From IMG/VR virus record IMGVR_UViG_3300020450_000018, positions 1 to 64,000 of that record: a stretch of 64,000 nt of DNA; one strand, given 5' to 3'. The notes beneath the pieces are model-generated. The model did not search any database and was not told where the DNA came from. It saw only the letters and a list, made by a program, of their open reading frames with translations. Of the stretch, positions 11,337-28,400 are shown one piece after another. Source of the stretch: a virus. Positions within the stretch are counted from its first letter, which is position 1, and the number at the start of each line of letters is the position of its first letter. Made by a program: the position numbers and the translations under genes.

Positions 11337-11483
11337 TTATTTTGTGGGTGTAATTTGACGACAGATTAAATATGGATTAACCATTTTACATTGCAGTGCC
11401 TTATCTGCTCTAATTGAAATAATTATAATAAAAAGTTGTACAATTATAGTTATTGGTATAACGTACTTAAATAATTTTTTCAT
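11337..11483 (-). CDS. 48-residue signal-anchor micro-protein between gp13 and gp14
   Basis: The ATG at 11483 shares a base with the gp13 stop (TAATG), and its own stop abuts the gp14 start. The product begins MKKLFKYVIPITIIVQLFII, a classic positive head plus hydrophobic core, then IISIRADKALQCKMVNPYLI and a basic end. Two cysteines (about positions 32 and 41) follow the span, so a periplasmic or lumenal domain with a possible disulfide is plausible. No lipobox is present. The exact fit between gp13 and gp14 makes it a likely real gene. Function unknown. Confidence 0.75.
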   Translation of the reverse strand: MKKLFKYVIPITIIVQLFIIIISIRADKALQCKMVNPYLICRQITPTK

Positions 11484-12307
11484 TATCCTATCATATCCAT
11501 TGGTGGTATTGCGTACTTGCTAAGAACCTCAGATTCAATTTTCTCAATTTCTGCAAGTGCGTCTGTGTAGATTTCTCTACCGTTAAGTGTAACTCCGCCA
11601 GGTAACTGAACATTGTTATACTTAATTAAATTCATACCCCACTGTCTCTTCATGAGAGATGTGGCATATTTTTTAACAAAAACATCATTGTTCATCTGTA
11701 CAGCTTCCGTAGGATCTATAAAACGATGACATTCAATAAGAATGTTAGTTCCTTCTTTAAGAAAATCTTTGTCAATATCCAAGTACAGACGATCATTACG
11801 TGCTGTAAATCTAAACTGCTGGAAAGATCCATTGTTTAGAACCATATCTAGAGTTTCTAGATACTGTTTAGTCATGTAGTAGTTGAGGATATCAAGTGAT
11901 CCAAATGCATATAAGTCATTTAAGAACAACTGATACTCAACACCGAAGAGATTAGAACGAATTGAGTTACTAACAAGACCAAATACTTTAGAAATACCAA
12001 CTACATGATCAGGAATCGGAATAAAATTTGTTGCCTCTAACCAAGTTCCAGTAGCATTTGGTGTGACATTAGTATCGGTAATTGTTTTAGTAGTTGTTGC
12101 TGCAAAACGAGTTTTATCATCTGCAGTAATTTCATGGTACAAATATGCACGCTCCATGCCATTGTAACAATTCTCTTGGAAGAACTGAAACGTGTCGTCT
12201 ATTACGTTGTTGACCTGTTCATCATCTATGTTAACTTGCAACACAGGTTCGCCAAGTTGCCTCTTACAATATGTGATGAGCTCAGCTCTAGAACTTGGAG
12301 ATGCCAT
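11483..12307 (-). CDS. 13: Neck protein gp13
   Basis: 274 residues from the ATG at 12307 (MASPSSRAELITYCKRQLGE). A TTG three codons upstream is less likely. Gp13 forms the head-completion connector with gp14. The family pattern is clear: LGEPVLQVNIDDEQVNNVID near 18-37, YLYHEI near 58, and a C-terminal SLMKRQWGMNLIKYNNVQL followed by PGGVTLNGREIYTDALAEIE. The gene begins directly after a terminator hairpin whose loop contains a late promoter box, so gp13 probably starts its own late transcript. No strong Shine-Dalgarno is seen. Confidence 0.95.
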   Translation of the reverse strand: MASPSSRAELITYCKRQLGEPVLQVNIDDEQVNNVIDDTFQFFQENCYNGMERAYLYHEITADDKTRFAATTTKTITDTNVTPNATGTWLEATNFIPIPDHVVGISKVFGLVSNSIRSNLFGVEYQLFLNDLYAFGSLDILNYYMTKQYLETLDMVLNNGSFQQFRFTARNDRLYLDIDKDFLKEGTNILIECHRFIDPTEAVQMNNDVFVKKYATSLMKRQWGMNLIKYNNVQLPGGVTLNGREIYTDALAEIEKIESEVLSKYAIPPMDMIG

Positions 12308-12314
12308 TATACAC

Positions 12315-12350
12315 AAAAAATCCCTTCTTACCTATTTAGGAAGAAGGGAT
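12315..12350 (-). terminator. Intrinsic terminator with late promoter in its loop
   Basis: On the minus strand ATCCCTTCTT (12350-12341) pairs perfectly with AAGAAGGGAT (12329-12320) around an 11-base loop and runs into TTTTTT (12320-12315). The loop reads CCTAAATAGGT, so it also contains the late box CTAAATA. It should stop transcripts coming from the oxygenase side just before gp13. Confidence 0.85.
12333..12339 (-). promoter_or_regulatory. Late promoter CTAAATA inside the terminator loop
   Basis: CTAAATA occupies the centre of the terminator loop about 26 bases before the gp13 ATG, a spacing similar to the other late boxes in this window. It is flanked by CC and GG, which could add three pairs to the hairpin. 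Confidence 0.65.
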
Positions 12351-12564: not shown

Positions 12565-13131
12565 TTATCTAAGTTGGTCATATGCATGTTGGACATAGTA
12601 TCCATCTGCTCTAACAAAATGAAAGAATGCTTGATGGAAACAAGAATCGGCGTTACCCTTCATTGGTTCTCGCCAATGATAGAGGTCACAACCACGATAT
12701 AGCACACCATCGCCAGGATTGCAAGTAATGCTTACTCTATCGCCTGCCTCGTTCTCAAAATATATAGGCCATTCGTAATTGAGGTTACTTGAGATATGAT
12801 AACTAACACTTATTTCACAAGCACCTCTATCAATATGTCTTTCTAATTGATTACCTTTAAAGTAGAACCGATCAAAATAATAAGATGGATATATTCTTTC
12901 ACCCATCATCTTTTCTAAGATGTCTCTAATTTTTAGATGTAACTCTTTCATTGATGGATGATTATATCTAGAGTAACTTCCTCCTACCTGTATCTCATCA
13001 CGAAAGGTTACATTGCCAGGCGCATTGTATTCATATGTTCCTCTCTCCCATGGAGTAGGAATGATAAATTCATCTGGAGGATGTATGTCTTTAATCTTTG
13101 TGACTTGCCAGTCTTTAGGTAACTTATTCAT
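12565..13131 (-). CDS. 2OG-Fe(II) oxygenase (prolyl-4-hydroxylase-like)
   Basis: 188 residues from the ATG at 13131, coupled to the upstream oxygenase by ATGA. The double-stranded beta-helix signature is visible. ERHIDRGACEISVSYHISS gives the H99-x-D101 pair and LYRGCDLYHWREP gives the distal H152. YPSYYFDRFYFKGNQLERH precedes the iron site, as in small P4H-type enzymes. It should bind Fe(II) and 2-oxoglutarate. Its substrate is unknown. Together with the next gene it forms the minus-strand arm of the oxygenase island. Confidence 0.85.
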   Translation of the reverse strand: MNKLPKDWQVTKIKDIHPPDEFIIPTPWERGTYEYNAPGNVTFRDEIQVGGSYSRYNHPSMKELHLKIRDILEKMMGERIYPSYYFDRFYFKGNQLERHIDRGACEISVSYHISSNLNYEWPIYFENEAGDRVSITCNPGDGVLYRGCDLYHWREPMKGNADSCFHQAFFHFVRADGYYVQHAYDQLR

Positions 13132-13742
13132 TTCCATCGCGGACCGCTCACCCAACCTACTAATGATTTTCTTAATCCAGAGTGAACCTCACAAGCTTGA
13201 TGCATCACTCTACTATCAAAAACAATTATAGTTCCTCTTTCTTTTGGTATAAAATATGAATTACCAGTATCCCTTTTAAATTCTACCTCTCCTCCAGAAT
13301 ATTCATCAGGATTAGATAGTTGCATAATAAAACTAAGTTTTCTCACCTTTTCAGAACCCTTCATTATAAAATTTTCTCGGTGGTCTATAAGGTTACCTTC
13401 ATTTTTAGGTGGCATTCCCATAGAATTTAAACTAGTATCCATGTGCCATCCATAATATTCACCACCCTCATATGATGTATATTGCATGGTTTCTCCATCC
13501 CAACCATCAATATCATATAAGAAATTTTCCCTATTTGCAAGCAAGACATAATGAAAACAAAGACCTGCAACCCAATGAGATGAACTAATCCAAGTAGTTT
13601 TACTATCTCTTTTTCTTAGATCAACACCACCTTGTGTATATGCTGTGTTTAAATTGGAATCAAATTGTTGTAAATCTTTCTCTACCGATGTAATCAACTC
13701 AGGTGGCATTTGTGTAAAATACCACAAACTATCCATTGACAT
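13128..13742 (-). CDS. 2OG-Fe(II) oxygenase (PKHD/P4H type)
   Basis: 204 residues. GEYYGWHMDTSLNS supplies H100 and D102. LSFIMQLSNPDEYSGGEVEF is the typical strand after the HxD. GTIIVFDSRVMHQACEV supplies H181, and the downstream R191/K192 in GLRKSLVGWVSGP is the likely 2-oxoglutarate anchor. It resembles PiuC-like hydroxylases common in cyanophages. It starts at the divergent promoter region shared with the plus-strand oxygenase run and is coupled to the next oxygenase. The second ATG (13736) is an alternative start. Confidence 0.9.
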   Translation of the reverse strand: MSMDSLWYFTQMPPELITSVEKDLQQFDSNLNTAYTQGGVDLRKRDSKTTWISSSHWVAGLCFHYVLLANRENFLYDIDGWDGETMQYTSYEGGEYYGWHMDTSLNSMGMPPKNEGNLIDHRENFIMKGSEKVRKLSFIMQLSNPDEYSGGEVEFKRDTGNSYFIPKERGTIIVFDSRVMHQACEVHSGLRKSLVGWVSGPRWK

Positions 13743-13746
13743 AATA

Positions 13747-13792
13747 CAATTTTCATACTAATATATACTATGTATACTAGCATATAAAATTG
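13747..13792. promoter_or_regulatory. Divergent promoter/operator region with ATACTA repeats
   Basis: The 53-base gap between diverging genes contains ATACTA three times on the plus strand (13755, 13765, 13774), about one helical turn apart, and a TATAC-TAT-GTATA palindrome at 13764-13776. CAATTTT and AAAATTG flank it symmetrically (13747-13753 and 13786-13792). TATACT and CATATAAAAT could serve as promoter boxes. Confidence 0.55.
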
Positions 13793-13795
13793 ATT

Positions 13796-14149
13796 ATGGC
13801 AATTACTGGTAAACTTGATGGTGAAGATTATACACTCGTAGCATCTGCAGGACAAACAACGGAAGCAGATATTGTTGTCGCAAATGACATCATTAGAATG
13901 TGTGAAGAACGAGGATTACAAGAACTTGTCTCAGCAATTAAAGTTCGCTATGGAATGGAAGAAGTAAAACATTATCCTTTGGATGGAAACCGTTTTGTAG
14001 AAGCATGTAAGGCATGTAACATTGCTGGCAATGTTCAAGGACATATTCATAGTGGAGATGAGGGTGCTGTAAGATATCCTATTATTGCTGTTGTTGAAGA
14101 CATCAGAAAATTTGAAGCACTATATGATTACATCAAAAATGATGCATAA
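13796..14149 (+). CDS. Hypothetical protein at head of plus-strand island
   Basis: 117 residues from the ATG at 13796 (MAITGKLDGEDYTLVASAGQ). An in-frame TTG six bases upstream is an alternative. No domain is recognised. It has a mixed alpha/beta composition, an LVSAIKVRYGMEEVKHYPLD helix-strand stretch, three Cys/His-rich spots (MCEERG, EACKACN, GHIHSGDEG) and an acidic end. It is the first gene after the divergent promoter, and the next gene starts inside its last codons, so it belongs to the oxygenase transcript. It may be a small accessory or substrate protein, but no function can be assigned. Confidence 0.8.
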   Translation: MAITGKLDGEDYTLVASAGQTTEADIVVANDIIRMCEERGLQELVSAIKVRYGMEEVKHYPLDGNRFVEACKACNIAGNVQGHIHSGDEGAVRYPIIAVVEDIRKFEALYDYIKNDA

Positions 14150-14744
14150 GGAACTAGCTTTTCCTACTCCCATCTACGTATTTGATTATGGTAATAGTTC
14201 TATTCTAGAATCTCCTCTTAATCATGTATTGAGATGTGATTCTATCTCATCAGAAACTTGTAGAACCACTGACGATAATCTAAATATTTTACCAATTTTT
14301 TCTGAACTTGTAAACGATTTAAAATTAAAAACAAAAATAGTTTTTGATGACATCAAGTTAAAATGTTCTGGAGAAAATATAACTTGCATGTGGGCAAATG
14401 TATCTTCTAAATTGAATAGACATAACATGCATCTACATCCAAATTCATTTTTTTCTGGAGTATTATATTTGAATGCTCCTAAAAATTGTGGTAACGTAGG
14501 GTTTAAAGATCCTAGATACGGATCAGAACTTTTAGCATTTGACTTTGAGGATGGTTCTATCTTCCAACATAGAACGATTGAAATAGAACCAATAACAGGA
14601 AGACTTATAATGTTCCCTAGCTGGTTATATCATGGCACTAGACAAGGAGAATTTGATCCACCAGAGGAGAGAGTATCTTTGAGTTTTAATGTTATGCCAA
14701 TTGCTAACATAAGAGATCATACTAGAAAACTAAATTTATTATGA
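14139..14744 (+). CDS. 2OG-Fe(II) oxygenase-like protein 1 of island (PF13759 type)
   Basis: About 201 residues from tandem ATG ATG at 14139/14142, overlapping the previous stop. Numbering here is from the second Met. TCMWANVSSKLNRHNMHLHP then SFFSGVLYLNAP is the 2OG-FeII_Oxy_5 pattern, with H97/H99. VGFKDPRYGSE gives D123, RLIMFPSWLYHGT gives H164, and EERVSLSFNV gives R177. All four elements of the cupin iron and 2-oxoglutarate site are therefore present. Members of this family are frequent in cyanophages with unknown substrates. The next gene overlaps by ATGA. Confidence 0.88.
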   Translation: MMHKELAFPTPIYVFDYGNSSILESPLNHVLRCDSISSETCRTTDDNLNILPIFSELVNDLKLKTKIVFDDIKLKCSGENITCMWANVSSKLNRHNMHLHPNSFFSGVLYLNAPKNCGNVGFKDPRYGSELLAFDFEDGSIFQHRTIEIEPITGRLIMFPSWLYHGTRQGEFDPPEERVSLSFNVMPIANIRDHTRKLNLL

Positions 14745-15304
14745 TATGTCAAGTTATAGATGGAATGTTTGACTCTAGATTTCTCACAGAACTAGATTAC
14801 AAACTTAGAGATTTACCAGTTCACACAAACAATGTGGCAAATAGATCATCTTGGCCATATCGTTATGAAGGCACTCACAGACTATTTGGAAAAACTATCT
14901 TTAGTAGAAAATCTATCAATAGAATCACAACCTTAGATGAAAACGCTAATGTTTTCTTTGATATTTTTGAAGAGATAGAAAAGAGATTTGATAAAAAATT
15001 ATATTTGTATGAGATAGCTATAAATTGCCAACACACAGGATGCAATGGTAGTACACATATAGATAGTGAAACTGAAGGAGAATATACTGTCATGCTGATG
15101 ACAAATTCTCATTGGGATCCTTCTTGGGGAGGACAGTTTCAATTAACTAAAGGTAATGAGGTTGTTGAGGAACATGAATATGTGCCAGGAAGACTTCTTA
15201 TAATTCCATCTAATCATGAACATAAAGGTCTAGGACCTACAAAAGAATATGTGTATAGATACACGGTGGTTTATAGAATTAGATATTTGGAGGAAATTTT
15301 GTGA
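14741..15304 (+). CDS. 2OG-Fe(II) oxygenase-like protein 2 of island (P4H type)
   Basis: 187 residues. STHIDSETEGEYTVMLM carries H106-x-D108, and the WDPSWGGQF strand follows, as in P4H enzymes. PGRLLIIPSNHEHKGL supplies the distal histidine (H161 or nearby H159), and YRYTVVYRI supplies R173. The subfamily differs from that of its neighbours (HxD rather than HxH, WGG motif), so the island is not a simple tandem duplication. Both ends overlap neighbours (ATGA upstream, GTGA downstream). Confidence 0.88.
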   Translation: MICQVIDGMFDSRFLTELDYKLRDLPVHTNNVANRSSWPYRYEGTHRLFGKTIFSRKSINRITTLDENANVFFDIFEEIEKRFDKKLYLYEIAINCQHTGCNGSTHIDSETEGEYTVMLMTNSHWDPSWGGQFQLTKGNEVVEEHEYVPGRLLIIPSNHEHKGLGPTKEYVYRYTVVYRIRYLEEIL

Positions 15305-15849
15305 TTAGTTTATTCTCTACTAAAATTGTTTACGTTGATAACTGCAATCTTAATTTAGAAAATTTAGAACGCAAGTGTAGAAATCACATGGTAACAGAAC
15401 CATCAAGCACGAGGTCTAATGTTGGAGGATATCAAGGACACTTCTTTGACGATAACGAATTATATAAGTTAATTGAAAGAAGCATTCCAAGTGTTCAAGA
15501 TAAACCTATTAAAAAATATAAGTATGGAGCTTGGGTAAATGTAAATGGATTTGGATCATATAATGAAAGACATCACCATGATCCACATTCAGGAACTTTT
15601 ATGAGTGGAGTTTTTTATGTGAAGTGTCCAGAAGGATCTGGTAGAATTAGATTCTATGATCCAAGACCACATATCAGCACTAGTGCTGATATGAAATATT
15701 ATAATGGTGGAGACACTTATCATTGGTTTCCTCCTATTCCAAACACATTAATTATGTTTCCTGGTTGGTTGGAACATGATGTAGAAATTAATAGATCACA
15801 AGAAGAAAGAATATCAATCTCTTTCAATATATTTGATGTAGAATATTAA
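15301..15849 (+). CDS. 2OG-Fe(II) oxygenase-like protein 3 of island (PF13759 type)
   Basis: 182 residues from a GTG start that overlaps the previous TGA (GTGA), preceded by GGAGGAAATTTT, a strong ribosome binding site. YNERHHHDPHSGTFMSGVF gives a His triplet (91-93) ahead of the SGVFYV strand. RIRFYDPRPH gives D120 and R122, MFPGWLEHDVE gives H159, and EERISISFNIF gives R170. A PF13759-type oxygenase is clear. The use of GTG with a strong ribosome binding site is notable. Confidence 0.87.
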   Translation: MISLFSTKIVYVDNCNLNLENLERKCRNHMVTEPSSTRSNVGGYQGHFFDDNELYKLIERSIPSVQDKPIKKYKYGAWVNVNGFGSYNERHHHDPHSGTFMSGVFYVKCPEGSGRIRFYDPRPHISTSADMKYYNGGDTYHWFPPIPNTLIMFPGWLEHDVEINRSQEERISISFNIFDVEY

Positions 15850-15851
15850 TT

Positions 15852-16409
15852 ATGGATACGTTGTATCAAGGATCTATGTTTCAAATTCCTTTTCTACATT
15901 TAAAGGTAAGGGATTGGATTACAAAAAAAGCATATCTTATAGATTCTGTTTCTAAAAACAAAGTGTTTGCAATGAATAATCCTCTACATGCACACACAGA
16001 TTTTCATAGTCAAAATGATCAAGAAATACACAACATCAAATCTGAGGATGTAGAGACATTATTCAAAGATGAGTTGAGTAGTCTTTTTAATTTTATTGGA
16101 ACCAATAAAGGAGAGGTAACAAATTCTTGGTTTGAGTTTGCTCAAGCTAATCAATTTCATAATGTTCATAACCACGGACCTACTGGATACAGTTGTGTTT
16201 GTTTTGTGGAGTATAATAAAGAACACCACACACCAACAAATTTTATTTGTCCATATAATGATGTTATGACTGGAGACATGATTCATTTTTCTCCAAAAAA
16301 TATTAAAGAGGGATCTATCATTTTCTTTCCTTCTTTAATACCACATTTTACAGATCCAAATGTAAGTGGAGTTCCTAGAATTATTTTTTCTTTTAATATT
16401 AGGTGGTAA
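15852..16409 (+). CDS. 2OG-Fe(II) oxygenase-like protein 4 of island
   Basis: 185 residues. NVHNHGPTGYSCVCFVEY carries H106/H108 at the position of the HxH of PF13759 enzymes. GSIIFFPSLIPHFTDPN gives H165 and PRIIFSFNIRW gives R176. The Asp seen in the DPR segment of its relatives is not obvious, so the iron ligand set may be His-only or may use another residue. It starts two bases after the preceding stop and is joined to the next gene by TAATG. Substrate unknown. Confidence 0.8.
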   Translation: MDTLYQGSMFQIPFLHLKVRDWITKKAYLIDSVSKNKVFAMNNPLHAHTDFHSQNDQEIHNIKSEDVETLFKDELSSLFNFIGTNKGEVTNSWFEFAQANQFHNVHNHGPTGYSCVCFVEYNKEHHTPTNFICPYNDVMTGDMIHFSPKNIKEGSIIFFPSLIPHFTDPNVSGVPRIIFSFNIRW

Positions 16410-17005
16410 TGTACTATAAAGTAATTGACGATGTAATCTCTAAAGATTATCAAAAATATATTCAGAGTGTAATATATGATATGATGTGGGCATATAAACA
16501 TACTCTATCTGCAAACACACCTTTAGGAGAGGAAGAAAATTTTGTTGATGTACCTGGTTTTTCTAAAGTTTTTTACAATCAGGAGGGAGTTCAAAACCAA
16601 TTGCTTTATAATACAGCAATGCCTTTAGCTCATATTTGTTGCTCAAAAATCAATGTTGAAATAGAAACTATATACTATGGAAGAAGTTTTCTGCAGGTTC
16701 CACTGCAAGATAAATCAGGTATCAGCAATCCACATATAGATATCACAAACTTTAATCATTTAGTTTGTCTATATTATGTTTTTGATTCTGATGGAGATAC
16801 TGTATTTTTTGATAAACGATCCGATAGTGAGGAAAGACCTTCTTTTAAAGATTATAAAATCATTGATAGAGTGACCCCAAAACAAGGAAGAGTTGTATTG
16901 TTTGATGGACGACAATACCACGCAAATTGTCTTCCAAGAAAATCTGATGTCCGTTCAGTAATAAACATGAATTTGGGAGCGAATTACACAAATGTATTAC
17001 AATGA
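16409..17005 (+). CDS. 2OG-Fe(II) oxygenase-like protein 5 of island
   Basis: 198 residues from the ATG at 16409 (MYYKVIDDVISKDYQ). A GTG six bases upstream is less likely given the TAATG overlap. SNPHIDITNFNHLVCLYYVF carries H109-x-D111. GDTVFFDKRSD follows, then GRVVLFDGRQYHANCLP with H171, and DVRSVINMNLG with R182. The signature is that of small phytanoyl/P4H-like oxygenases. The 3' end overlaps the next gene by 14 bases. Confidence 0.86.
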   Translation: MYYKVIDDVISKDYQKYIQSVIYDMMWAYKHTLSANTPLGEEENFVDVPGFSKVFYNQEGVQNQLLYNTAMPLAHICCSKINVEIETIYYGRSFLQVPLQDKSGISNPHIDITNFNHLVCLYYVFDSDGDTVFFDKRSDSEERPSFKDYKIIDRVTPKQGRVVLFDGRQYHANCLPRKSDVRSVINMNLGANYTNVLQ

Positions 17006-17573
17006 AGTTAATTTTTTAACAGACGAAGAAAAATCTAAAATTGATTCTGAAATCATGGGAAATAATTTTCCATGGTATTATCAAAATTATTCTACCTCAG
17101 ATAAATTTCCATTTTATTCTCATGTAGTAATTCCTAGATGTGAAGATGATGAAATTAATAATTCTAATTCTACAATGTATGATTTTTTTCTAAACATAGT
17201 TGATAGATTTAGAGAAAAAAATAACATGGAAAAAACTCCATTACTTAGAGCTTGTTTAAATTCAAGCAGTGGTTTTGATGATTATCCTCATAGTGATATT
17301 CATGTAGACCATCATTTTGGACATAAAACATTTATAATTTATCTTAATGATGATTTTGATGGTGGTGACACCATTTTGTTTAGTAGATACTGGGTTGAAG
17401 GTCTACAAACAAATTATAAACTTGAGTCTTATAACAAAGAAGAGTTCCCAGAATTAACTAGAATTACTCCAGAAAAACATAAAGTTGTTTGTTTTGATGG
17501 TAGAATTTTTCATGCAACAGAGTGGACTAAAAATAATAAAAGAAGAGTAATTTTTATTGCAACTTTTAAATAA
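16992..17573 (+). CDS. 2OG-Fe(II) oxygenase-like protein 6 of island
   Basis: 193 residues beginning MYYNEVNFLTDEEKSKIDSE, very similar in style to the previous protein (MYYKVIDDVISKDY), which suggests an old duplication. PHSDIHVDHHFGHKTFIIYL carries H104-x-D106, DGGDTILF is the following strand, VVCFDGRIFHATEW supplies H174, and NKRRVIFIATF supplies R184/R185. A GGGAGCG ribosome binding site lies inside the preceding gene. Confidence 0.86.
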   Translation: MYYNEVNFLTDEEKSKIDSEIMGNNFPWYYQNYSTSDKFPFYSHVVIPRCEDDEINNSNSTMYDFFLNIVDRFREKNNMEKTPLLRACLNSSSGFDDYPHSDIHVDHHFGHKTFIIYLNDDFDGGDTILFSRYWVEGLQTNYKLESYNKEEFPELTRITPEKHKVVCFDGRIFHATEWTKNNKRRVIFIATFK

Positions 17574-17574
17574 T

Positions 17575-18603
17575 ATGAAAAGTGAACAGGAGTGTATAGA
17601 ATATTTTGTCTCAAGTTTTTTAGATGAGCAACATGGCAATGATTACTTTATTGCACATTGCATGGGAGTGTATACAATTCTCAAACAGATGGGTTCACCA
17701 TTAGAAATTTGTATAGCTGGATTATATCACTCAGTTTATGGAACAGAACATTTTACACCTGTTACACGTTTAACAGAACATACTGTTAAAGAATACATTG
17801 GAGAGAGATCAGAAGATCTTGTATCTACTTTTTGTTCTTTGACAGATAGAGATACCTCTATACTAAAAAACTTAAATAACTATGATGAGAGAAAGAGAAA
17901 AGATCTTTTGTATATTAACTATGCAAATTTAGTAGACCAATCTCAATCTCTAGATGATCCTAAATTAAAATTGTTACTAACAGAGTATCAAAGTGCACTA
18001 GCATCAACATCTCCTGTTTTTAATGATACAAAAAATGTCATTGAAATTTATGATGATTTGATCAGTAGCAGTGATTTGGATTGGATGCACACGTATTGTT
18101 TAAATTCTACCTTTACATGTGGACATGCAAGTAATCCTTTAGGATATGAAAGGGACAGTAGATTTTCTTCTCAAATTACAAATAGTGATTTAGAAAGTTC
18201 TGGTGTTTTAAGTGTTGTTAAATCAGTGTCAAAACAATTACAACAAAAATTGTATATTGGTAAATGTTATATCAATCATTATCAGTTGATGACGTCAACT
18301 GGTAGACATACTGATAGTGCCTTACCAAATACTTTTACTATCCTTATTTTTTGTAATAAGTATTGGGAAGAACCTTGGGGTGGAGAGTTAAAAATTTACA
18401 AAGATAAATCAAAAACACATAGTATAATTGATTATATTGCAGGAAGAGTTGTAGTGTTTGATTCTAGAATAGAGCATAAGGTAATGCCTCTTACACATGC
18501 AGCTAAAAAAGATAGGTTTACAATAGCAGTAAAATGTAGTAATATAGAAGGACTACAACATTTAATTTCAATGTATGGAGATGAAATTGTAGATGTACAA
18601 TAA
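17575..18603 (+). CDS. HD-like (DUF6817-type) domain fused to 2OG-Fe(II) oxygenase
   Basis: 342 residues from the ATG at 17575. The N-terminal 150 residues are helical, with FIAHCMGVYTILKQMG (H28) and ICIAGLYHSVYGTEHF (H52). This is the layout of HD-superfamily-like DUF6817 domains, with ANLVDQ near 117-122 possibly supplying the C-terminal Asp. Residues about 155-320 form a P4H-type oxygenase: RHTDSALPNTFTILIF (H245, D247), WEEPWGGELKIY, RVVVFDSRIEHKV (H301) and KDRFTIAVK (R314). The two-domain fusion sets it apart from its single-domain neighbours and suggests a sequential or regulated reaction. The stop overlaps the next gene. Confidence 0.84.
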   Translation: MKSEQECIEYFVSSFLDEQHGNDYFIAHCMGVYTILKQMGSPLEICIAGLYHSVYGTEHFTPVTRLTEHTVKEYIGERSEDLVSTFCSLTDRDTSILKNLNNYDERKRKDLLYINYANLVDQSQSLDDPKLKLLLTEYQSALASTSPVFNDTKNVIEIYDDLISSSDLDWMHTYCLNSTFTCGHASNPLGYERDSRFSSQITNSDLESSGVLSVVKSVSKQLQQKLYIGKCYINHYQLMTSTGRHTDSALPNTFTILIFCNKYWEEPWGGELKIYKDKSKTHSIIDYIAGRVVVFDSRIEHKVMPLTHAAKKDRFTIAVKCSNIEGLQHLISMYGDEIVDVQ

Positions 18604-19147
18604 TACATTATTTTCAATCGGTCTCTCTACCTTAGAATTGCAAGGTATGGATAATCAAATACTATGTAATTATGTAAAAGAAAATATTGGAAGACAAAAC
18701 AGACATGTGAACAGTGATGATGCAGAGTTATCAAAATTAAATGCAATAGTCTTACAACAAACTCAAAAAATACTTGATGGTACAATTTCAAATACCGATG
18801 TTAATAATCTAGAAACACAAATAAAACGTGTGTGGGTTAATCAAGATTTGAACACTGATATATCTACAACACATACACATAGAGATAGTTTTTTATCTGC
18901 AATATACTATCCAAAATCAACTGATGGTAAAATACATTTTTATATTCCTTCAGCTGATGTATATTTGTCTCATGTACCAATTTACAAATGTAAAGAGTAT
19001 AATGAGTACAATAGCACATTTTGGGAGTTTGATGTAAAGACAGGATATCTCCTCATCTTTAACTCTATGCTTCCACATGCTGCTCTACCCTCAAAAGAGG
19101 AAAGAGTATCCATTGTTTATGATATAGTAGTCAATGAAAACAATTAA
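18593..19147 (+). CDS. 2OG-Fe(II) oxygenase-like protein 7 of island (PF13759 type)
   Basis: 184 residues. VWVNQDLNTDISTTHTHRDS (H94, H96) leads into FLSAIYYPKSTDGKIHFYIP, the core of the PF13759 fold. GYLLIFNSMLPHAALPSKEE supplies H162 and ERVSIVYDIV supplies R171. The usual DPR Asp is replaced by IPSAD at 118-122, where D122 may substitute. It overlaps the flavin halogenase start by 14 bases, so the two are probably translated together. Confidence 0.84.
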   Translation: MYNNTLFSIGLSTLELQGMDNQILCNYVKENIGRQNRHVNSDDAELSKLNAIVLQQTQKILDGTISNTDVNNLETQIKRVWVNQDLNTDISTTHTHRDSFLSAIYYPKSTDGKIHFYIPSADVYLSHVPIYKCKEYNEYNSTFWEFDVKTGYLLIFNSMLPHAALPSKEERVSIVYDIVVNENN

Positions 19148-20594
19148 TTCTATTTGTATCATTGGTGGTGGGACTGCTGGATGGATGTCTGCTGCTTTTC
19201 TTTGCAACAAAAATCCAAAATTAAAAATAACCATTGTTGATAAAGAGATTGGAACTCCAGTCAGTGTAGGTGAAGCTACTATTTTAAACTTTGGTTTTTT
19301 TATGGATCAATGTGGATTTGATTCTGGTGAGTGGTTTAGTTCTTTAGATGCAACATATAAATCTGGAATTTTATTTCCTGATTGGGTAGAGGAAGGAAAA
19401 GATGTTTGGCATCCATTCTTCATGAACCCAACTCTTGATAGTGGAGAGACATCTCACGATGCTTGGTGTAAAAATAAAGATCTTGATTTTGTAGAGTATG
19501 CTCTACCAATGTATTACAACTCTATGGAAAATAAAGTTGATAAGAATGAAATTGGAGCATATGGGTTTCAGATTGATTGCGGAAAATTAGTTGAGTATCT
19601 AAGAAAAAAACTTGATAATAAAGTAACTTACATACCATCAGAAGCTGTTGAGATGTTTAAGTATAAGAATCATCTGATAAAACTTCTACTTAAAAATGAT
19701 ATGGAAATTACATCTGATTTCTTTATTGATTGTAGTGGATGGGAAAGTTTGTTAAAGGAATCTGATAAAGTTGATCTTACTGGTAGACTTTTCTGTGATA
19801 CTGCAATTGCTACCAGAGTTCCATACAATGATAGAAAAACAGAAATGAAACCTTATGTTGTTTCTAGATCTGTTGATTGTGGTTGGATTTGGGAGATTCC
19901 AATAAGAACTAGAATTGGATCAGGTTTAGTTTTTAACAAGTCTATAACTCCTATAGAAGAAGCTAAACAACATCTAATCAAACACTGGGACAATAGAATT
20001 ACAGAAGAAGATTTAAAAGTTCTTAACTGGACTCCATATTATTGTAAAAACATTTGGGAAGATAATGTAGTTTCAATTGGATTGTCCGCTGGTTTTATTG
20101 AACCATTAGAAAGCACTGGTCTTGCTTTAATGATTGATGGATTAAAAAAACTACAAACAAAAATTGCTGATGGTACGTGGAATAATCTAGATAAAGATCT
20201 TTATAATTTAGAAATGCAATCTGCATTTGAAGACTGTATTGATTTTGTTAGCATGCATTATTCTAAACCCTATAAGGATACTCCTTTCTGGAACCATGTA
20301 AGAGAGAATTATATCCCATCAGAAAGAATTAAATCTGTAGAAAATACACTATCCAAAAAATTATTGTATACTAATAACAGAAAAGAACATCACGTTTTCT
20401 CTGGTGCTAACTGGACAACGTGGATGATTCAAATGGGATATGATGTCAATTCAGATTCTACCTATATCAAAGAGATATCAAGAAAAAATTTACTTCGTTA
20501 TCATGAAAGAATTGAAAAGTATAGATCCTCATGGTCTGTGGATCATGAAAGTGATATAAGTAGAGTAGAATTATTTTATGAGTTAGGAAAATGA
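19134..20594 (+). CDS. Flavin-dependent halogenase (tryptophan-halogenase family)
   Basis: 486 residues with every hallmark of the family. The FAD-binding GGGTAGW is at 11-17. The catalytic lysine K76 lies in DATYKSGILFPDW (counterpart of PrnA K79). The halogenase-specific WIWEIP (WxWxIP) is at 251-256. FIEPLESTGL at 321-330 carries E326 and S327 (PrnA E346/S347). It should use FADH2, O2 and halide to halogenate an electron-rich, probably aromatic, substrate. It needs a flavin reductase partner, which is not seen here. A related cyanophage enzyme, VirX1, is a published iodinating halogenase. It is coupled to oxygenases on both sides (14-base overlap upstream, ATGA downstream). Confidence 0.95.
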   Translation: MKTINSICIIGGGTAGWMSAAFLCNKNPKLKITIVDKEIGTPVSVGEATILNFGFFMDQCGFDSGEWFSSLDATYKSGILFPDWVEEGKDVWHPFFMNPTLDSGETSHDAWCKNKDLDFVEYALPMYYNSMENKVDKNEIGAYGFQIDCGKLVEYLRKKLDNKVTYIPSEAVEMFKYKNHLIKLLLKNDMEITSDFFIDCSGWESLLKESDKVDLTGRLFCDTAIATRVPYNDRKTEMKPYVVSRSVDCGWIWEIPIRTRIGSGLVFNKSITPIEEAKQHLIKHWDNRITEEDLKVLNWTPYYCKNIWEDNVVSIGLSAGFIEPLESTGLALMIDGLKKLQTKIADGTWNNLDKDLYNLEMQSAFEDCIDFVSMHYSKPYKDTPFWNHVRENYIPSERIKSVENTLSKKLLYTNNRKEHHVFSGANWTTWMIQMGYDVNSDSTYIKEISRKNLLRYHERIEKYRSSWSVDHESDISRVELFYELGK

Positions 20595-21166
20595 TTGAGA
20601 GCTGGTTTCCAAGAACTATATTTGTAAAGAATAATATTCTTTTAGATAAACTTGAATACTATGAAAACTTTGTTGACCATATTGTAAATCAAGAGGGTTC
20701 AGAAAGAAATGGAATTCATTTTGTACAATCTACTCACAAATATTTTGATAGATTTCATGAGACTTCCCAGATGCAAGATCTAGTAAGAGAAATTAATACT
20801 AGTTCTCATGAATATCTAAGAGCACTAGGATATAATGATACCACAATAGCATCAACAAAAATTGCAAATATGTGGGCAAACGTTAGTGGTAAAGGAGATT
20901 ACCTCACTCCACACATACATGGTGAAAGTTTGCTTTCTGGTGCGTTTTATGTTTGTTCTGGTGAAGATGACAAACTTAGATTTTTTAATAACATAACAGA
21001 AAGTTTTTTAAAAGCACCAGACAATCCAAACCAATACAGTTATCAGTATTGTGAATATCCTTGTACGCCAGGAAGATTATTAATATTTAAAAGTAGTTTT
21101 ATGCATGGAACAGAGGCACAGAAATCAGATAAGAAAATTGTAATTTCTTTTAATATAACTACATAA
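20591..21166 (+). CDS. 2OG-Fe(II) oxygenase-like protein 8 of island (PF13759 type)
   Basis: 191 residues, coupled to the halogenase by ATGA. ANMWANVSGKGDYLTPHIHG gives H108/H110, followed by LLSGAFYVCSGEDDKLRFF. GRLLIFKSSFMHGTEAQKSD gives H172 and KKIVISFNIT places lysine (K181/K182) where relatives have the arginine that holds 2-oxoglutarate. It ends the plus-strand unit and overlaps the converging minus-strand gene by 8 bases, so no terminator fits between them. Confidence 0.88.
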   Translation: MIESWFPRTIFVKNNILLDKLEYYENFVDHIVNQEGSERNGIHFVQSTHKYFDRFHETSQMQDLVREINTSSHEYLRALGYNDTTIASTKIANMWANVSGKGDYLTPHIHGESLLSGAFYVCSGEDDKLRFFNNITESFLKAPDNPNQYSYQYCEYPCTPGRLLIFKSSFMHGTEAQKSDKKIVISFNITT

Positions 21167-21437
21167 CTTCTTTAACTCTATCTTTGCTCTGCGCCCATCT
21201 TTCACGCATTTCTTTAGTAAAATACTCAAGACAAACTGTTTTTACCTCTGGTGTTAACCACCAATTTTCTTCAGTTGCCTCTCCAGATATATCATCATCT
21301 GGAGTAATTAATCTTGTGTGATGTCCAATAAAAACTTCAACGCTTCCTACAACGCTAAAATCTTTTTTTCTTACTAATACAGTTCCGTCACCATTGAGTT
21401 CAATGTGATCAACTTTACTTTGTTCTGTAATTGCCAT
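21159..21437 (-). CDS. Small conserved protein downstream of fibre gene
   Basis: 92 residues, starting MAITEQSKVDHIELNGDGTV, with beta-rich KVDHIELNGDGTVLVRK and EVFIGHHTRLITPDDDISGE followed by a helical, charged C-terminus (EYFTKEMRERWAQSKDRVKE). The ATG has GGAGATATAAA upstream. Its position just after a fibre gene suggests a fibre assembly or attachment companion. No named family is recognised. It is the last gene of the minus-strand fibre unit and runs into the oxygenase island. Confidence 0.8.
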   Translation of the reverse strand: MAITEQSKVDHIELNGDGTVLVRKKDFSVVGSVEVFIGHHTRLITPDDDISGEATEENWWLTPEVKTVCLEYFTKEMRERWAQSKDRVKEVM

Positions 21438-21455: not shown

Positions 21456-22445
21456 TTAAGTATATTTAATAACAATTGTACCAGATCCACCAGAACCACC
21501 GTTACCAGAACCGTAGTCCCATCCAGCACCACCGCCTCCGCCAACACCAGATCCGCCAGGTTGACCTTGAGATCCTTGACAACCACCGCCACCACCTGAG
21601 CCAGGTGCAGGACCAGGATTTGCATACTGTGCTTGACCTCTTCCGCCACCACCAACAGAAAGTGGAGCACCTGCAAAGTCGGTTGTGATACCAGCACCAC
21701 CAGTGTTTTGACCAAAGGAAGCACCACCAGCAGCACCAACTCCGCCACCTCCACCAAAGTTTCCTGGTTCGCCAGGATTACCAGATCCATTAGAAGCAGA
21801 GAAACCAGGTGCCTGAGGTTGTGTTGAATTACCTGCAGGAAAAGATCCAGAAGGATATATAGCTCCTCCTCCTCCACATCCACCAGGTCTTCCAGTACCC
21901 TGTCTACCAGGATGAGAAGATCCACCGCCACCGCCACCATAAGCGACTAGAGTTCCGAAAGTTGTATTTCCACCTTGATATCCATAACCACCATTTGTGC
22001 CAGGTGAAGAACCACCTTGTCCAACACCATAAGAGACAGACTGGCCAGGAGTTACAGGGAAACTATTGACTTGAACCATGGCACCGCCACCGCCACCGCC
22101 TCCAGTTCCTGATCCACCAGAACCACCGCCACCTACGAGTAATACATCAACAGAGGTAATACCATCGGGGACACTCCAAGTTCCAGATTGTGCTGTCAAA
22201 GTTACCTGAGATGGTTCAGCGTCAACCTGCTTCCATCCAGTTACTCCTGTATAAAATTCTAATTTATAGTTTGAGGTGTTAACACGAATAGATCCTTCTG
22301 TTGGAGATCCAGGTCTATTTGATGTTGACCCTGAGGGGACAACAACCTGAGAGGCACCACTTAAATTGATACCAACACCAGGAGCGAAGTTAATATCGCC
22401 ACTTCCTGGAACGGTACTCAATTCATTTACTTTTAACGTACTCAT
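21456..22445 (-). CDS. Glycine-rich tail fibre / adhesin-like protein
   Basis: 329 residues. The N-terminus (MSTLKVNELSTVPGSGDINF) and the segment RPGSPTEGSIRVNTSNYKLE match the tail-fibre strand motif seen in the 1347-residue structural protein. From about residue 95 it becomes a Gly-rich domain opening with GTWSVPDGITSVDVLLVGGG and closing with SGTIVIKYT, with many GGGG runs. This resembles Gly-rich phage adhesin tips built from polyglycine II helices. It is likely a receptor-binding or fibre-tip protein. The late box TATAAATA lies about 35 bases upstream. Confidence 0.85.
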   Translation of the reverse strand: MSTLKVNELSTVPGSGDINFAPGVGINLSGASQVVVPSGSTSNRPGSPTEGSIRVNTSNYKLEFYTGVTGWKQVDAEPSQVTLTAQSGTWSVPDGITSVDVLLVGGGGSGGSGTGGGGGGGAMVQVNSFPVTPGQSVSYGVGQGGSSPGTNGGYGYQGGNTTFGTLVAYGGGGGGSSHPGRQGTGRPGGCGGGGAIYPSGSFPAGNSTQPQAPGFSASNGSGNPGEPGNFGGGGGVGAAGGASFGQNTGGAGITTDFAGAPLSVGGGGRGQAQYANPGPAPGSGGGGGCQGSQGQPGGSGVGGGGGAGWDYGSGNGGSGGSGTIVIKYT

Positions 22446-22485: not shown

Positions 22486-25400
22486 CTACCTAACTGTCCA
22501 ACTAGCACCAGTTCCAATGGTTACTACATGACCACCACCTGCAACAATGGTTATAGGACCGTTTGAGGTAGCGATAGAACCATTGGGAATAGTGACAGAT
22601 TCAGCGATATCAGTGTTTGTTCCTCTGATAATTCCATAAGAGTCAAACCACTGAGCAGTGCCATTAACTCTCATAACTCCAGTCATGTTCAAGTCACCTG
22701 ATACATCTAATGTATATGCTGGACTTGGAACATTACCAATACCAACTTTAGAGTCTCTATAGATGTTAGCACCAGAATCATTTGCAGATTCTGTCCATCT
22801 AGAAGTAACAAACTCCTCATTATTCTGGAAGAACTGACCGTTAAGGTTCATATCACCTTCAACGTTCAAGATGTAATCTCTTTGTGTATTGGGAGTTGTA
22901 CTGGTATCAGTGCCAGAGAAACTGTTAGTATTAATACCAACTCTATTGTTAGCACCTTGAATAGCAAGTGCTGGTGCACCAGCAGGAGTTGCTAGACTCT
23001 TCCAGTTATCACTACCGTTTGTTTGTGATGCATAGATCTCAAAGAGATCAGGACCTCCACCAATATTAGTTCCTAAACGGAATCCTCTACCACCACCAGC
23101 ACCAGATCCACCACCCCTTAGTTGGATGTCTGCTTCTTGGTTTGCAGTTCCTTTCGCAATTCTTACACTATTAAGTGCGTGTGTGATATCACTGTAAATG
23201 TTCTGCCATCTTGTACCATCAGCACCAAGATCTTGGTCACTATCAGCACCAGCTAGAATATTACCACTACTATCAAATAGAATCTTGTAGTTTAAAGGAT
23301 CGTTTATTCCATCACTATATACAAATCCAAGGTTACCTTGTCCTGCCCAAGAAGATGAACCTCCATTGTAAATATTCCAATATTGTCCATTAGCATTCTT
23401 AAGTGCTATTGCAGCACCTGTAGTACTATTATCCTCTAATCTTAGTAGACCTGAACCAACTACATTAGATTCCCATCCATCTCCCTTAATATGGAGTTTT
23501 GTCTGTGGATCTGCATTACCAATTGCAACACGATTATCAGTAGAATCAACATATAATGTGTTTGTATCTACTGTTAGATCACCTCCAACAGTTGTGTTTG
23601 ATCCAACAGATAAAGTACCAGTGCTCTGAATACTAATTCCTGCTCCACCTGTTAAGGTAAGTGTACCAGTCATGGTATCACCAGACTTCAATACGTTAAG
23701 TGAAGCAGCACCTGTTAGTGATGCTGTAATTGTACCAGCAGAGAAGTTACCAGATGTGTCGCGTTGTACAGCAGATTTAAGTGACCCTGTAGAAACTACG
23801 TTTGCAGAGTTAAATGCAACATTACCTGCGTTCCAAATAATATTGTTATTAACCTTAAGTTCGTTTTCATTAACAACTTTAAATTCTAAAGTACCAGATC
23901 CCTCTGTTGCATTACCACCATCAGCAATGATGGCAGAGTTGTAACTAGGATTTCCATTAGTGTCTACAGCTTGTGCTTGTGATGAATTAAAATAGATGTA
24001 TGGATTTGTTGCACCATTACCATCATATCTACCAAGTCTTAGGAAACCAGTTCCAGAATTATTACCTAACTCTGCATATTGAATTGTGTTAGCATCGTAA
24101 ATCTCCCATTGTTCAAACTCTCTTTCATCACCAGCAACACCAAGGAATATAGCAGCAGTAATATTTCCACCAGAAGCAAGTCTTCCGATTAAAATTGTGT
24201 ATGTATTAGAAGAATCATTTTGATCTACAATTTGGTCAGTTGCAGTAATAGTAAAATCACCAACACTAATTTTATTAACATCAAAGAGGTCAATTGTATT
24301 GGTAGTCTCAAAGTCACCGCCAGGTGAAATGTCTAAATTTTGTCTTACTAAAATTCTATAGAAAACATCCGTTCCACCATATGATGAAACTTCAATTTTA
24401 TCTCTAAACTTAGTAGAACTTCTCCATACTGGAAGTCTAGTATCAAATATCTCATTAAGTTTAATATTTCTAGCATCTTGATACCATACACCTTGTTTGT
24501 TATCAAGTTTGTCAGCGTCTAAGCCTGAGTCTATACCTTGGTTTCCTGAGTTCCACACCTCATACCATGAACCATATGATGTTACAGCATCACCAGAACC
24601 ACGGAAGTATATTCTATCATCATTAGCAAAAGCAAGTTGTCTTACACCACCAAATGTAGCATCTCCACCAGTTTCTCCATTACGGAGAGTCATTACTAAA
24701 TGTTTGGCAGAGTTAGAGTTTCCAGTGTCTACACTTGGGAATGCAGATAACAAACCATTAGAGCTATTGAATAAAGTCTGTAATGTTATACCTTGTACAG
24801 CATCACTAGGACCAGGATTAGCATTAGCATTACTGGTACCAGTATCTAAACGAAGTGTGTTAGTAGATCTACCACTAATGTCAATACTGTATACTCCACT
24901 AGCAAGTTTGTCTGGAACAATACTACTGTCAACAAAGAATGCACCGTTAAGGTAGTAAGAACCTTGTTGACCATCTAACAAGTCAGCATCAAGTCCACTG
25001 TCAGGACCCATCTTAATAGAGACAGATCCATTTCCTTCATCACCAATATTAAATTGAGATTTCTTATATCTAGAAACACCAATAGTTCCAAATAGATCCT
25101 GAGAAATTGTTAGATCAGAAACTCTCTGAACATCTAATGCAATGTTAGCAAATTGTTTCTGAGTGGTAGCTACTTTTGCAAGTAGTACTAAGTTAGAACC
25201 AGATCCAATAATAGTTGGATTTGGAGTGACTTGGAAGTCTGCAGTATATCCACTACCTGCGTTTGTTACTGTACATGTAGTAACTACACCACTTTGACCA
25301 TTTTCACCAACAATAATATTTGCTCTAAGATCAACACCATTGTTTCCTGCTGGTGCATCTAGTGAGACGTCAAAGTATTGTCCATCTGTAAATCCTGTAC

Positions 25401-28400
25401 CACCGTTTGCAATAACAATAGAATCAATAAAGTCACCACCAGTGTTTGTGGAGTCAAAGATAAGTGGAGATGCACCACGATTAAATTCAATAACTGTTCC
25501 TAAAGGAATAGTTGCAGTAATTGGATTGTTAAAGGAGACAGTTGTTAATCCACCAACTACAGTAACTCCATTAACTGTTGTATCTGCAGCAATTCCAGCA
25601 ATTGAAGCTACGATGTCATGACCCTTAAGAACATCTGATAGTCCTTGGAAGATAAATGAACTTGAACCTGTAGATGCTTGAGCAGCAAGTCTTGCAAAGT
25701 ATCTTGTTTCTGCACCTTTCAGTGATTGAACAACCTTTGCATATCTTGAGTCACCTCTTAAGAAGGTAAAGGAGTTTGCAGCTTCAGAACCTAGTAAGGT
25801 TGTAGAAATAACGCCAGGACCTGTAAGAGATGAGACACCAACAGAGTCACTACTTAATGATACCCAGTTACTTGCAGTAAATCCAGATGTATTAACTACT
25901 CTGGTAATATTAATTGTATTTGCACTTGGAGAAGAACTATCATCAAAGGTATCAGTATCAAGCATCTTGATATTGTTGACGATGTTACCATACAATCTAC
26001 TTTCAATTAATGCATTTGCGGTTGCTTGTGTACCAGCGCCAGGTGGTGCTTGAATTGTAATTGTTGGTTGTGTTGTATATCCTAAACCACCAATGTAACT
26101 AGCATTTTCGTTAATTGTAATAGTAACAACTTCACCATTTGCAATCGTAGCGGTTGCAGTAGCTGCAACAGAACCTGAGGATGGGTTACCACCAGAGATG
26201 GTTACTGTTGGTGCAACAGTGTATCCAGAACCACCATCAGTAATATTGATTTTAAATAATACACCTTGTCTATATTCAGTAGACTGAATTCTACCTGTAG
26301 ATGGAGTACCAGTAAATACATCACCGATATTGAATGAGAGGGTAGAATCTACAGCAAATCCTAAGAATAAACTTGTTAGGTCATTGTTTAGAATGAAGGA
26401 AGTTTGTGTATCCTGTTGAATTGCGATGTCACCAGCAAGTGCTCCCTCTAGTGCTAGTCTAGCTGCTTCATCAGCAACTGTAAATACACTGAAAGGTCTT
26501 AGTGCTGGAATTTGATCAAGAGAGATTTTACCAGAATCAGTAAGTTCAACCAGTGCTCTAGGAACAGCGTTAGTAGAGAAAGGTTTGTTGATGTAAGGAC
26601 CTAAGTTGTTAGTAATATAATCCTTAACTGCCTTCTGAGTTGGTAGTTTGGAGTCACTAGCATTAGCACCACCAAGAGTGTTACTATTATCAAATCCAGT
26701 AACAACAACGTCACCACCTTTTAGTTTCAAGAACTCAACTTCAGAAATTGTAACTGTACCAGTAAAGGTAATGTTACCAGTTCTGTTCTCAATTCTAGCA
26801 AAAGTACCAACCTTGAAGTCTCCAAGTTCGTCAGTACCAGAAACATATACACGACCATAATTTTCAGAAACCTGTTCAAATGCCTCTACTTTTGTACCAC
26901 CGTTCTCAGGTAGTGCAAGGTAGTTTGTACCTGATCCTGCAAATTCCCAAGTATGTGATGAGGAGTTAACGATAGATGGTCTATGTAACTTAATGGTTGC
27001 ATTAGATGCACCAGAAGGTGTCAATGCAGCTTGTAATGCAGCAAGACCAGCAATAGTGTTTCCAGTTGCTTCCTCAATTAGAGTTAATCCATTACCAATA
27101 CCATCATCAATTGTAAGAGTTGCAGAGAAAGGAGGTCCTACAGTGACAGAAGAAACAGAATCAATGAAGAATTCTTTTTCTGGATCTGCATTTCTATATC
27201 CATCAAATTTAACGATGTAATGTTCAAGTGGTTCTCTACCAATGCCACCAATAGTAAGAGTAGTTCTACCAGTTGGAGTTTGTGAAACTACATTAACTGT
27301 ACCAACGTCAAATGTATAGCACTCTCTTCTAAATCCTGTTCCTCTTAATGCAAATGTACCGAAGTTGGTAGCAGAGTTAGTAATAGATGCATAACCACCA
27401 GATTCACAGAGAACACCATCTTGACAGAAGATAACGAACACAGAAACTAACTGCGTATATCCATCCTCTATAACTTTATATCCTGTACCACCAAACGACA
27501 CAATCGTGAACGCAGCAGCAACCATTGATTTACCCTGATTAGGGAATGATGCAGTTCCATCTGGTTCAAGACCAGGAAATGGACAGTTAGGTTGTTTAAC
27601 TTTAGATCCATCAACCAGTGCACCACCACCACCTCTAAAGGAGATAACAGATGCGTTTTGTGTATATGGAGATGCCTCAATGATTGGGAAATCATCAAAT
27701 ATACTACGAATCGCCATACGTTGACCAGAAGTATCATTGATGAAACTATCTGGATATGTAATGATATCAACAGTATTGTATAATGTTCCAAAAGTTTGAG
27801 TGGTGGAACCAGCTGCAGTTGTTCCATCTATAATATCTTCAAATAATTCTAATGCTGTATCAATACTAGATTCTACACCTGCACAAATAGCATTGTTTGC
27901 AGCACTTGTAGAGGAATAAGCACTTACAGCATCAGCAGTAGCACTTACAAATGCATGAGTTGACTGTGGAAGATGTGAAACTGCATTAGAAGTTGCAAAC
28001 TGGAATTGATGTGTATATTGATCACTCTGAGAGGATGCACCTACATTGACAGTAATTGAGGTAGCAGTTTTTCCTGTGATTGGAATAGACTTACCAGATA
28101 TAGGATCAGTTGATCTTGGATATGTATGATTAGTAGCAAAATTATCTTGAGAACATCTAAAGGTTAGAGAGTCGTCAGCAATAACAACACCTTCACCAAC
28201 ATCTAGAGTATGAGTACCAATCTCCAGTGTCATTATCCCCGTTGCAGGATCGTAAGTTGCAGCAGTTGGTGTAAACTGTACGTTAGGACCTGAAGTACCA
28301 ACATTAACAGTTACTGTATTTGTTGTTGTAGCAGTAATTACAAGATTATTTGCATATGCAGGTTGACCATCTTTTGGATACTTATGCTCTGTAGCATCGT

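Follow-up and report, generated by a model that had tools for sequence, protein, structure and literature searches.

An array of eleven 2-oxoglutarate-Fe(II)-oxygenase-fold genes and a flavin halogenase beside a glycine-rich tail-tip adhesin gene in a T4-like, cyanophage-type virus

High numbers of 2-oxoglutarate (2OG)-Fe(II) oxygenase genes in cyanophages are already on record, and the genes have been treated as scattered auxiliary metabolic genes (AMGs): S-SCSM1 has 24 (PMC9602691), and the ten of S-CREM1, together with a PrnA, were listed as separate AMGs (PMC9964418). For S-CREM1 and S-SCSM1, virion proteomes have also been reported. AMG listings have included the 2OG oxygenases and "tryptophan halogenases" of cyanophages since 2010, with guessed roles in nitrogen metabolism, repair or antibiotic protection, and a part in 2OG/nitrogen balance has been proposed for the 2OG genes (PMC3037559). 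Here we describe an island at positions 12565-21166 of a 64-kb window (the whole stretch of DNA that was analysed) out of the 72,176-base IMG/VR virus record IMGVR_UViG_3300020450_000018. This marine virus is T4-like and of cyanophage type, to judge from its genes for the tail sheath, the large terminase, the gp13 head-tail adaptor, the baseplate wedge and a giant tail fibre. The island holds eleven genes with the 2OG-Fe(II)-oxygenase fold, two on the minus strand (A1 and A2) and nine on the plus strand (B1 to B9), and one flavin-dependent halogenase (HAL), and it lies by the gene for a glycine-rich tail-tip adhesin (Table 1). The recurrence of related arrays by Gly-rich tail-tip genes in other marine phages suggests, though it does not prove, that these viruses chemically decorate the protein with which they grip their hosts. 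We favour the reading that the island is a post-translational tailoring module for the adhesin, a substrate proposed from gene position, and we hold it to be a serious possibility that falls somewhat short of probable. Four points are new as far as the literature searched shows: that the array recurs as a unit linked to the tail tip, how large it is in this virus, that it grows gene by gene, and that two family names needed correcting; no paper found in that search linked the arrays to tail fibres.

The proposed substrate, at 21456-22445, matches PF21722 with 55.1 bits against a cut-off of 24.3. We surveyed 177 marine loci, containing 594 2OG-like open reading frames (ORFs) and 159 halogenase ORFs, and took as a proxy for the adhesin any ORF of 150-700 amino acids with at least 22% Gly. 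Such a Gly-rich ORF lay within 3 kb of 34 of the 41 clusters that had five 2OG genes or more, 29 of the 53 with three or four, 8 of the 82 with one or two, and none of the 40 halogenase-only loci (Fisher 6e-15 and 1.5e-15). Across 13 complete named phage genomes, 48 of 157 2OG hits fell at most 8 kb from a PF21722 gene, where rotation of the genomes gave 14.6 +/- 5.3 (P=0.0002), and a scan of cellular genome collections found a Gly-rich ORF in 6 of 13 loci with at least three 2OG genes versus 3 of 67 with fewer. Two contigs that were binned as SAR11 yet carry podovirus-like structural genes (L291, 5532-8450; L312, 3540-5923) have a Gly-rich adhesin, a small gene and four or five 2OG genes consecutively. 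Among the guest genes of the arrays, those for glycans or regulators are few, and JmjC/cupin domains and a single family of tail-assembly chaperones occur in their place.

Related runs recur in the same slot, flanked by tail-fibre-tip genes on one side and by neck or downstream genes on the other, in S-RIM44, Sf-CH11, Sf-CH3, Syn10, S-CREM1, P-TIM40, S-RIM50, ACG-2014b and S-MS29, as a neighbourhood search proposed in an earlier note on this DNA has now brought out, and also in the pelagiphages HTVC008M and Mosig. The window array is an expanded version of this recurrent cyanophage/pelagiphage island. By 2OG count, contig L013 ranks first among the 177 loci, followed by the window, L163 and L084 with eleven each. 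Five viral contigs (L107, L109, L114, L161 and L163) combine, in no more than 21 kb, four or five halogenases with 8-11 2OG genes, and these also adjoin several paralogous tail-tip genes. The fusion of DUF6817 to a 2OG domain seen in B7 is present in contig L105 as well. The halogenases of S-B64 and S-MbCM6 are located elsewhere, without arrays, and S-SSM7 has a 2OG gene and a halogenase among sugar genes in the tail-tip/neck slot.

The S-SSM7 arrangement speaks for glycan tailoring, in which sugars or lipids, whether of the host envelope or of a virion glycan that neighbouring sugar genes produce, would be oxidised and halogenated by the enzymes. There, carbamoyltransferases, a kinase, phosphoheptose isomerase, an epimerase and nucleotidyltransferases stand beside the 2OG gene and the nearest named relative of HAL (38%), and a few arrays elsewhere carry epimerase, sulfotransferase or radical S-adenosylmethionine genes. 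Glycosyltransferase and sugar-nucleotide genes are, however, absent from the window island and from most arrays, an association with one class of adhesin protein is not what glycan tailoring predicts, and we know of no halogenated glycan from the flavin halogenase class. We consider a glycan substrate unlikely.

The placement of the eleven genes draws on several lines of evidence. Eight of the proteins pass the Pfam cut-off: A2, B2 and B7 (starts 13128, 14741 and 17557) with PF13640, and B1, B3, B4, B8 and B9 (14085, 15301, 15852, 18593 and 20591) with PF13759. B5 (16403) and B6 (16992) lie under that cut-off, but the phrog_274 profile finds them at 4e-35 and 8e-31, and HxD...H...R is invariant in a 43-row alignment of relatives; A1, which has no Pfam match, matches phrog_2954 at 1.6e-62, with H107, D109, H160 and R162 invariant in 101 relatives. 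For the AlphaFold model of A1 (predicted local distance difference test, pLDDT, 90.9), all 50 PDB matches listed by Foldseek are 2OG enzymes, AlkB, FtmOx1, P4H, PHD2 and SnoN among them. The matches listed for the B6 model (pLDDT 89.9) include 6N1F, PHD2, collagen P3H1 and OGFOD1, and its PDB matches listed are chiefly protein prolyl hydroxylases. The double-stranded beta-helix is seen with AlphaFold and Foldseek in A1 and B6, and through a Pfam match or a sequence match to 2RG4/3BVC in most of the others. Family profiles, conserved triads or the two models thus place all eleven genes in the 2OG fold, and 2OG- and Fe(II)-dependent turnover is their predicted function. The earlier note had named ten such genes; their identity, both as to family and as to fold, withstood the profiles and models, and the count did not, there being nine rather than eight on the plus strand besides the two on the minus strand.

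The iron triad reads HxD in A1, A2, B2, B5, B6 and B7, HxH in B1, B4, B8 and B9, and HHHD in B3, so that six or seven of the eleven have a strict HxD/E triad and the remainder the HxH variant. HxH is also present in the solved relatives 2RG4 and 3BVC, and PF13759 proteins possibly have a three-His iron site. Throughout the census, HxH replaces HxD/E in about half of the 2OG-like proteins. The 2OG-binding Arg or Lys some 10-12 residues past the distal His is clear in A2, B3, B4, B5, B6, B8 and B9 and less clear in B1, B2 and B7; A1 has none at this spacing, and R162 and Q175 are conserved instead. Aliphatic halogenases of the 2OG type (SyrB2/WelO5-like) can be set aside, as the triad position is D or H in all eleven proteins and never Ala or Gly. 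The same is true of two inherited names: "DNA endonuclease V" (T4 DenV) for phrog_274, with the DNA-modification reading that it implies, and ferrochelatase for phrog_2954, since the B6 and A1 models match 2OG enzymes instead. The misleading names of these two PHROGs propagate through cyanophage records.

HAL matches PF04820 at E=1.1e-83 and has the hallmarks of a flavin-dependent halogenase (PF04820, variant A), namely GxGxxG, WxWxIP and the catalytic Lys and Glu. The motifs of PrnA and VirX1 are retained (GGGTAGW; WIWEIP, with W251/W253/P256; K76; E326), and PrnA is the best PDB match, scoring above VirX1. These features bear out the flavin halogenase that had been noticed earlier inside the plus run, and HAL is predicted to halogenate.

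The sibling contig L013 keeps every gene of the island in unchanged order, with ~92% DNA identity, gap-free over a 7-kb stretch. It carries two further 2OG genes that are absent from the window, at the X/B1 border (3112-3734) and after B9 (10752-11252), for a total of thirteen and a cassette-like pattern of gain or loss. The 2OG genes have dN/dS values of 0.046-0.319, the halogenase has 0.149 and gp13 has 0.076. Purifying selection acts on each of the twelve enzymes, and these ratios rule out decay or non-coding status. Paralogues within the island share no more than about 35% identity, whereas several genes have 40-60% relatives in other phages; this excludes recent tandem duplication as the origin of the array. 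Given the divergence of the paralogues, the selection and the insertions at borders, we concluded that the array is an old set of distinct enzymes retained together, with whole genes gained or lost where one gene meets the next. At the DNA level no close phage relative was found, just gp13 and small-gene matches of 77-83% identity.

Whole-gene gain and loss at gene borders is also what would be expected of an AMG hotspot, where independent auxiliary genes, collected by recombination, act on host metabolism through 2OG and nitrogen balance, repair, or antibiotic protection by PrnA, with no common substrate. This is the published view (PMC3037559, PMC9964418, PMC9602691), and the spread of 2OG genes across cyanophage genomes, up to the 24 of S-SCSM1, agrees with it. 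A hotspot predicts neither eleven divergent oxygenases all under selection, nor a dose-dependent link to Gly-rich adhesins, nor recurrence with podovirus-like structural genes, and for draining 2OG one enzyme would be enough, not eleven; we doubt that it accounts for the island.

Table 1. Genes and other features of the island and its flanks
Feature	Position	Strand	Remarks
gp13 neck / head-tail adaptor Ad2	11483..12316	-	other flank of island slot
A1: 2OG oxygenase fold	12565..13155	-	H107-x-D109...H160; phrog_2954, mis-named "ferrochelatase"
A2: 2OG-FeII_Oxy_3 (PF13640)	13128..13742	-	H100-x-D102...H181...R191
Divergent intergenic region	13736..13795	+	sigma70-like TTGACA-17-TAATAT at 13736-13764
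X: small protein, not 2OG	13796..14149	+	phrog_10937; opens plus run; conserved in sibling L013
B1: PF13759/TIGR02466	14142..14744	+	HxH...H
B2: PF13640	14741..15304	+	H106-x-D108...H161
B3: PF13759/TIGR02466	15301..15849	+	HHHD...H159
B4: PF13759	15852..16409	+	H106-x-H108...H165...R176
B5: phrog_274, mis-named "DNA endonuclease V"	16403..17005	+	H111-x-D113...H173...R184
B6: phrog_274	16992..17573	+	H104-x-D106...H174...R185; model matches 2OG enzymes
B7: DUF6817 (residues 25-95) fused to PF13640 2OG domain (residues 240-324)	17557..18603	+	
B8: PF13759	18593..19147	+	H94-x-H96...H162...R171
HAL: flavin-dependent (tryptophan-type) halogenase	19134..20594	+	PF04820/phrog_2928
B9: PF13759/TIGR02466	20591..21166	+	H108-x-H110...H172...K182
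Small protein between array and adhesin	21159..21437	-	phrog_6228
Glycine-rich tail-tip adhesin, proposed substrate	21456..22445	-	PF21722 Gly_rich_2, phrog_2295
Giant tail-fibre protein	22486..32418	-	phrog_5342

The plus-strand genes are closely coupled, as had been noted before: neighbours overlap by 4 bases (14741/14744, 15301/15304 and 20591/20594), 7 (16403/16409), 11 (18593/18603) or 14 (16992/17005 and 19134/19147), and one pair is separated by a gap of 2 (15849/15852). A TTG at 14085 was listed first as the start of B1, and the ATG at 14142 is likelier. None of the 36 remaining called ORFs in the 64 kb is 2OG-like, and every PF13759 match across the whole 72-kb record is inside the island. 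Because 2OG genes are lacking elsewhere in the window, and because of conservation and selection, the array is beyond chance. The DUF6817 part of B7 is weakly HD-like, and a phosphoribosyl transferase gene (phrog_32468) lies at 6700-7239, within the terminase/gp13 block.

A T4-late-like motif, TATAAATA or CTAAATA, is found 26-51 bp upstream of minus-strand structural genes in 7 of 15 hits (p=1.3e-8; minus-strand positions 12339, 22485, 32460, 45348, 47216, 47229 and 3883). It precedes gp13, the tail fibre and the adhesin, where TATAAATA stands 33 bp upstream, and a search of the window found none before the plus-run genes. Ahead of the plus run is the sigma70-like site, with hexamers identical in L013; as a candidate promoter it is a lead only, being a consensus match of a kind that arises commonly by chance in an AT-rich region. 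Co-ordinate, non-late control of the array would best explain this pattern, in line with the separate control from the late block that the earlier note had suggested.

In the adhesin-tailoring module that we favour, the plus run would be switched on from a host-type promoter ahead of the late genes. Each oxygenase would have its own type of residue to hydroxylate (Pro, Asn, Lys, His or an aromatic), and exposed Trp, Tyr or His of newly made adhesin or fibre would receive halogen from the halogenase. The reactions would draw on cellular 2OG, on O2 and reduced flavin, and on halide from sea water. The result would be receptor-binding loops whose non-standard side chains are beyond the reach of genetic change alone, and the island would work like a tailoring cluster for a ribosomally synthesized and post-translationally modified peptide (RiPP), with a structural adhesin as the "precursor". 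Glycine-rich tips of the gp38, polyglycine II (PGII) type bear receptor loops and are receptor-binding platforms (PMC12892980), and there is precedent for flavin halogenases that modify Trp within peptides and proteins (PMC10286304, PMC12518702). Fold and catalytic residues, selection, the recurrent tail-tip slot, the Gly-rich adhesin statistics and the podovirus-like contigs are together best explained by such a module. That a tailoring cluster acts on one substrate, as first proposed with a peptide, a virion or host protein, or a glycan in mind, is plausible and unproven, and synteny narrows the list towards the tail-tip adhesin.

Several observations weigh against this assignment. About two thirds of the phrog_81/phrog_274 genes in the 13 genomes are distant from the adhesin, and therefore 2OG genes are not adhesin-specific; halogenases outside arrays were near adhesins in 0 of 40 cases. 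The surveyed loci are phylogenetically related and most were found via array genes, and the less biased, gp13-anchored set, counted on contigs having about 10 kb upstream, gives a weak association: 5 of 11 contigs that carry 2OG genes have a Gly-rich gene, as does 1 of 15 that lack them. Adhesins of halogenase-bearing loci contain more His and Tyr, and perhaps Trp (His 1.45% versus 0.45%, with phylogeny uncontrolled), a suggestive trend, and the window adhesin, which has little His or Trp, departs from those of several halogenase-rich loci. Finally, a single protein would hardly call for eleven hydroxylases unless its sites were numerous.

Least credible, and in our judgement improbable, is the biosynthesis of a halogenated, hydroxylated small molecule or peptide (a toxin, signal or siderophore-like metabolite): natural products are often tailored by 2OG enzymes together with flavin-dependent halogenases, HAL has PrnA as its best PDB match, and FtmOx1 and SnoN are among the fold neighbours of A1, but scaffold enzymes (nonribosomal peptide synthetase, polyketide synthase, RiPP precursor, leader peptidase or transporter) are found neither in nor adjoining the island, and none is common among array guests.

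Extending the adhesin-tailoring module beyond this virus, we offer more tentatively the idea of a mobile, expandable cassette shared by marine phages with two kinds of virion. With as many as about a dozen members, its 2OG oxygenases, together with one to five halogenases, might write a combinatorial hydroxyl/halogen code on the Gly-rich tip, and host recognition might shift by enzyme gain and loss besides adhesin mutation. If true, enzymes would write chemistry onto phage receptor-binding proteins, and host recognition would have a layer invisible in sequence alone. The link to Gly-rich tail tips offers one testable substrate for 2OG oxygenases and halogenases.

Among known systems, VirX1 of cyanophage Syn10 (PDB 6QGM) resembles HAL in fold family, motifs and its place at the tail-fibre end of a 2OG run, although the two are ~27% identical and PrnA matches HAL better. 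RiPP clusters with peptide halogenases (a marine brominase and ChlH; PMC10286304, PMC12518702) share Trp halogenation of an encoded polypeptide and further tailoring enzymes; the substrate proposed for the island is instead a virion protein, and neither a leader-bearing precursor nor a recognition element, a protease or an exporter is found in or adjoining it. The PGII tip of S16/PP01 gp38 is likewise a glycine-rich tip displaying variable receptor loops, for which we found no modifying enzymes described (PMC12892980), whereas the window tip is matched by Pfam PF21722 and not by structure. In S-CREM1 (OP535465) and Syn9/Syn10, a halogenase is followed by a packed 2OG/JmjC run by Gly-rich or "collagen-like" tail genes; there are fewer 2OG genes, compared proteins are <40% identical, and the run, as noted for Syn10 and S-CREM1, is co-directional with the tail genes, unlike that of the window. 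S-RIM50, ACG-2014g and ACG-2014b have just four or five 2OG genes, DUF6817 as a separate gene and an array without a halogenase, yet identities reach 59% for B5, 58% for A1, 45% for B6 and 39% for DUF6817; in S-RIM50, as in the window, the tail fibre and the A2-A1 pair lie on one strand, the B run lies on the opposite strand, and the order B5-B6-DUF6817 is common to both.

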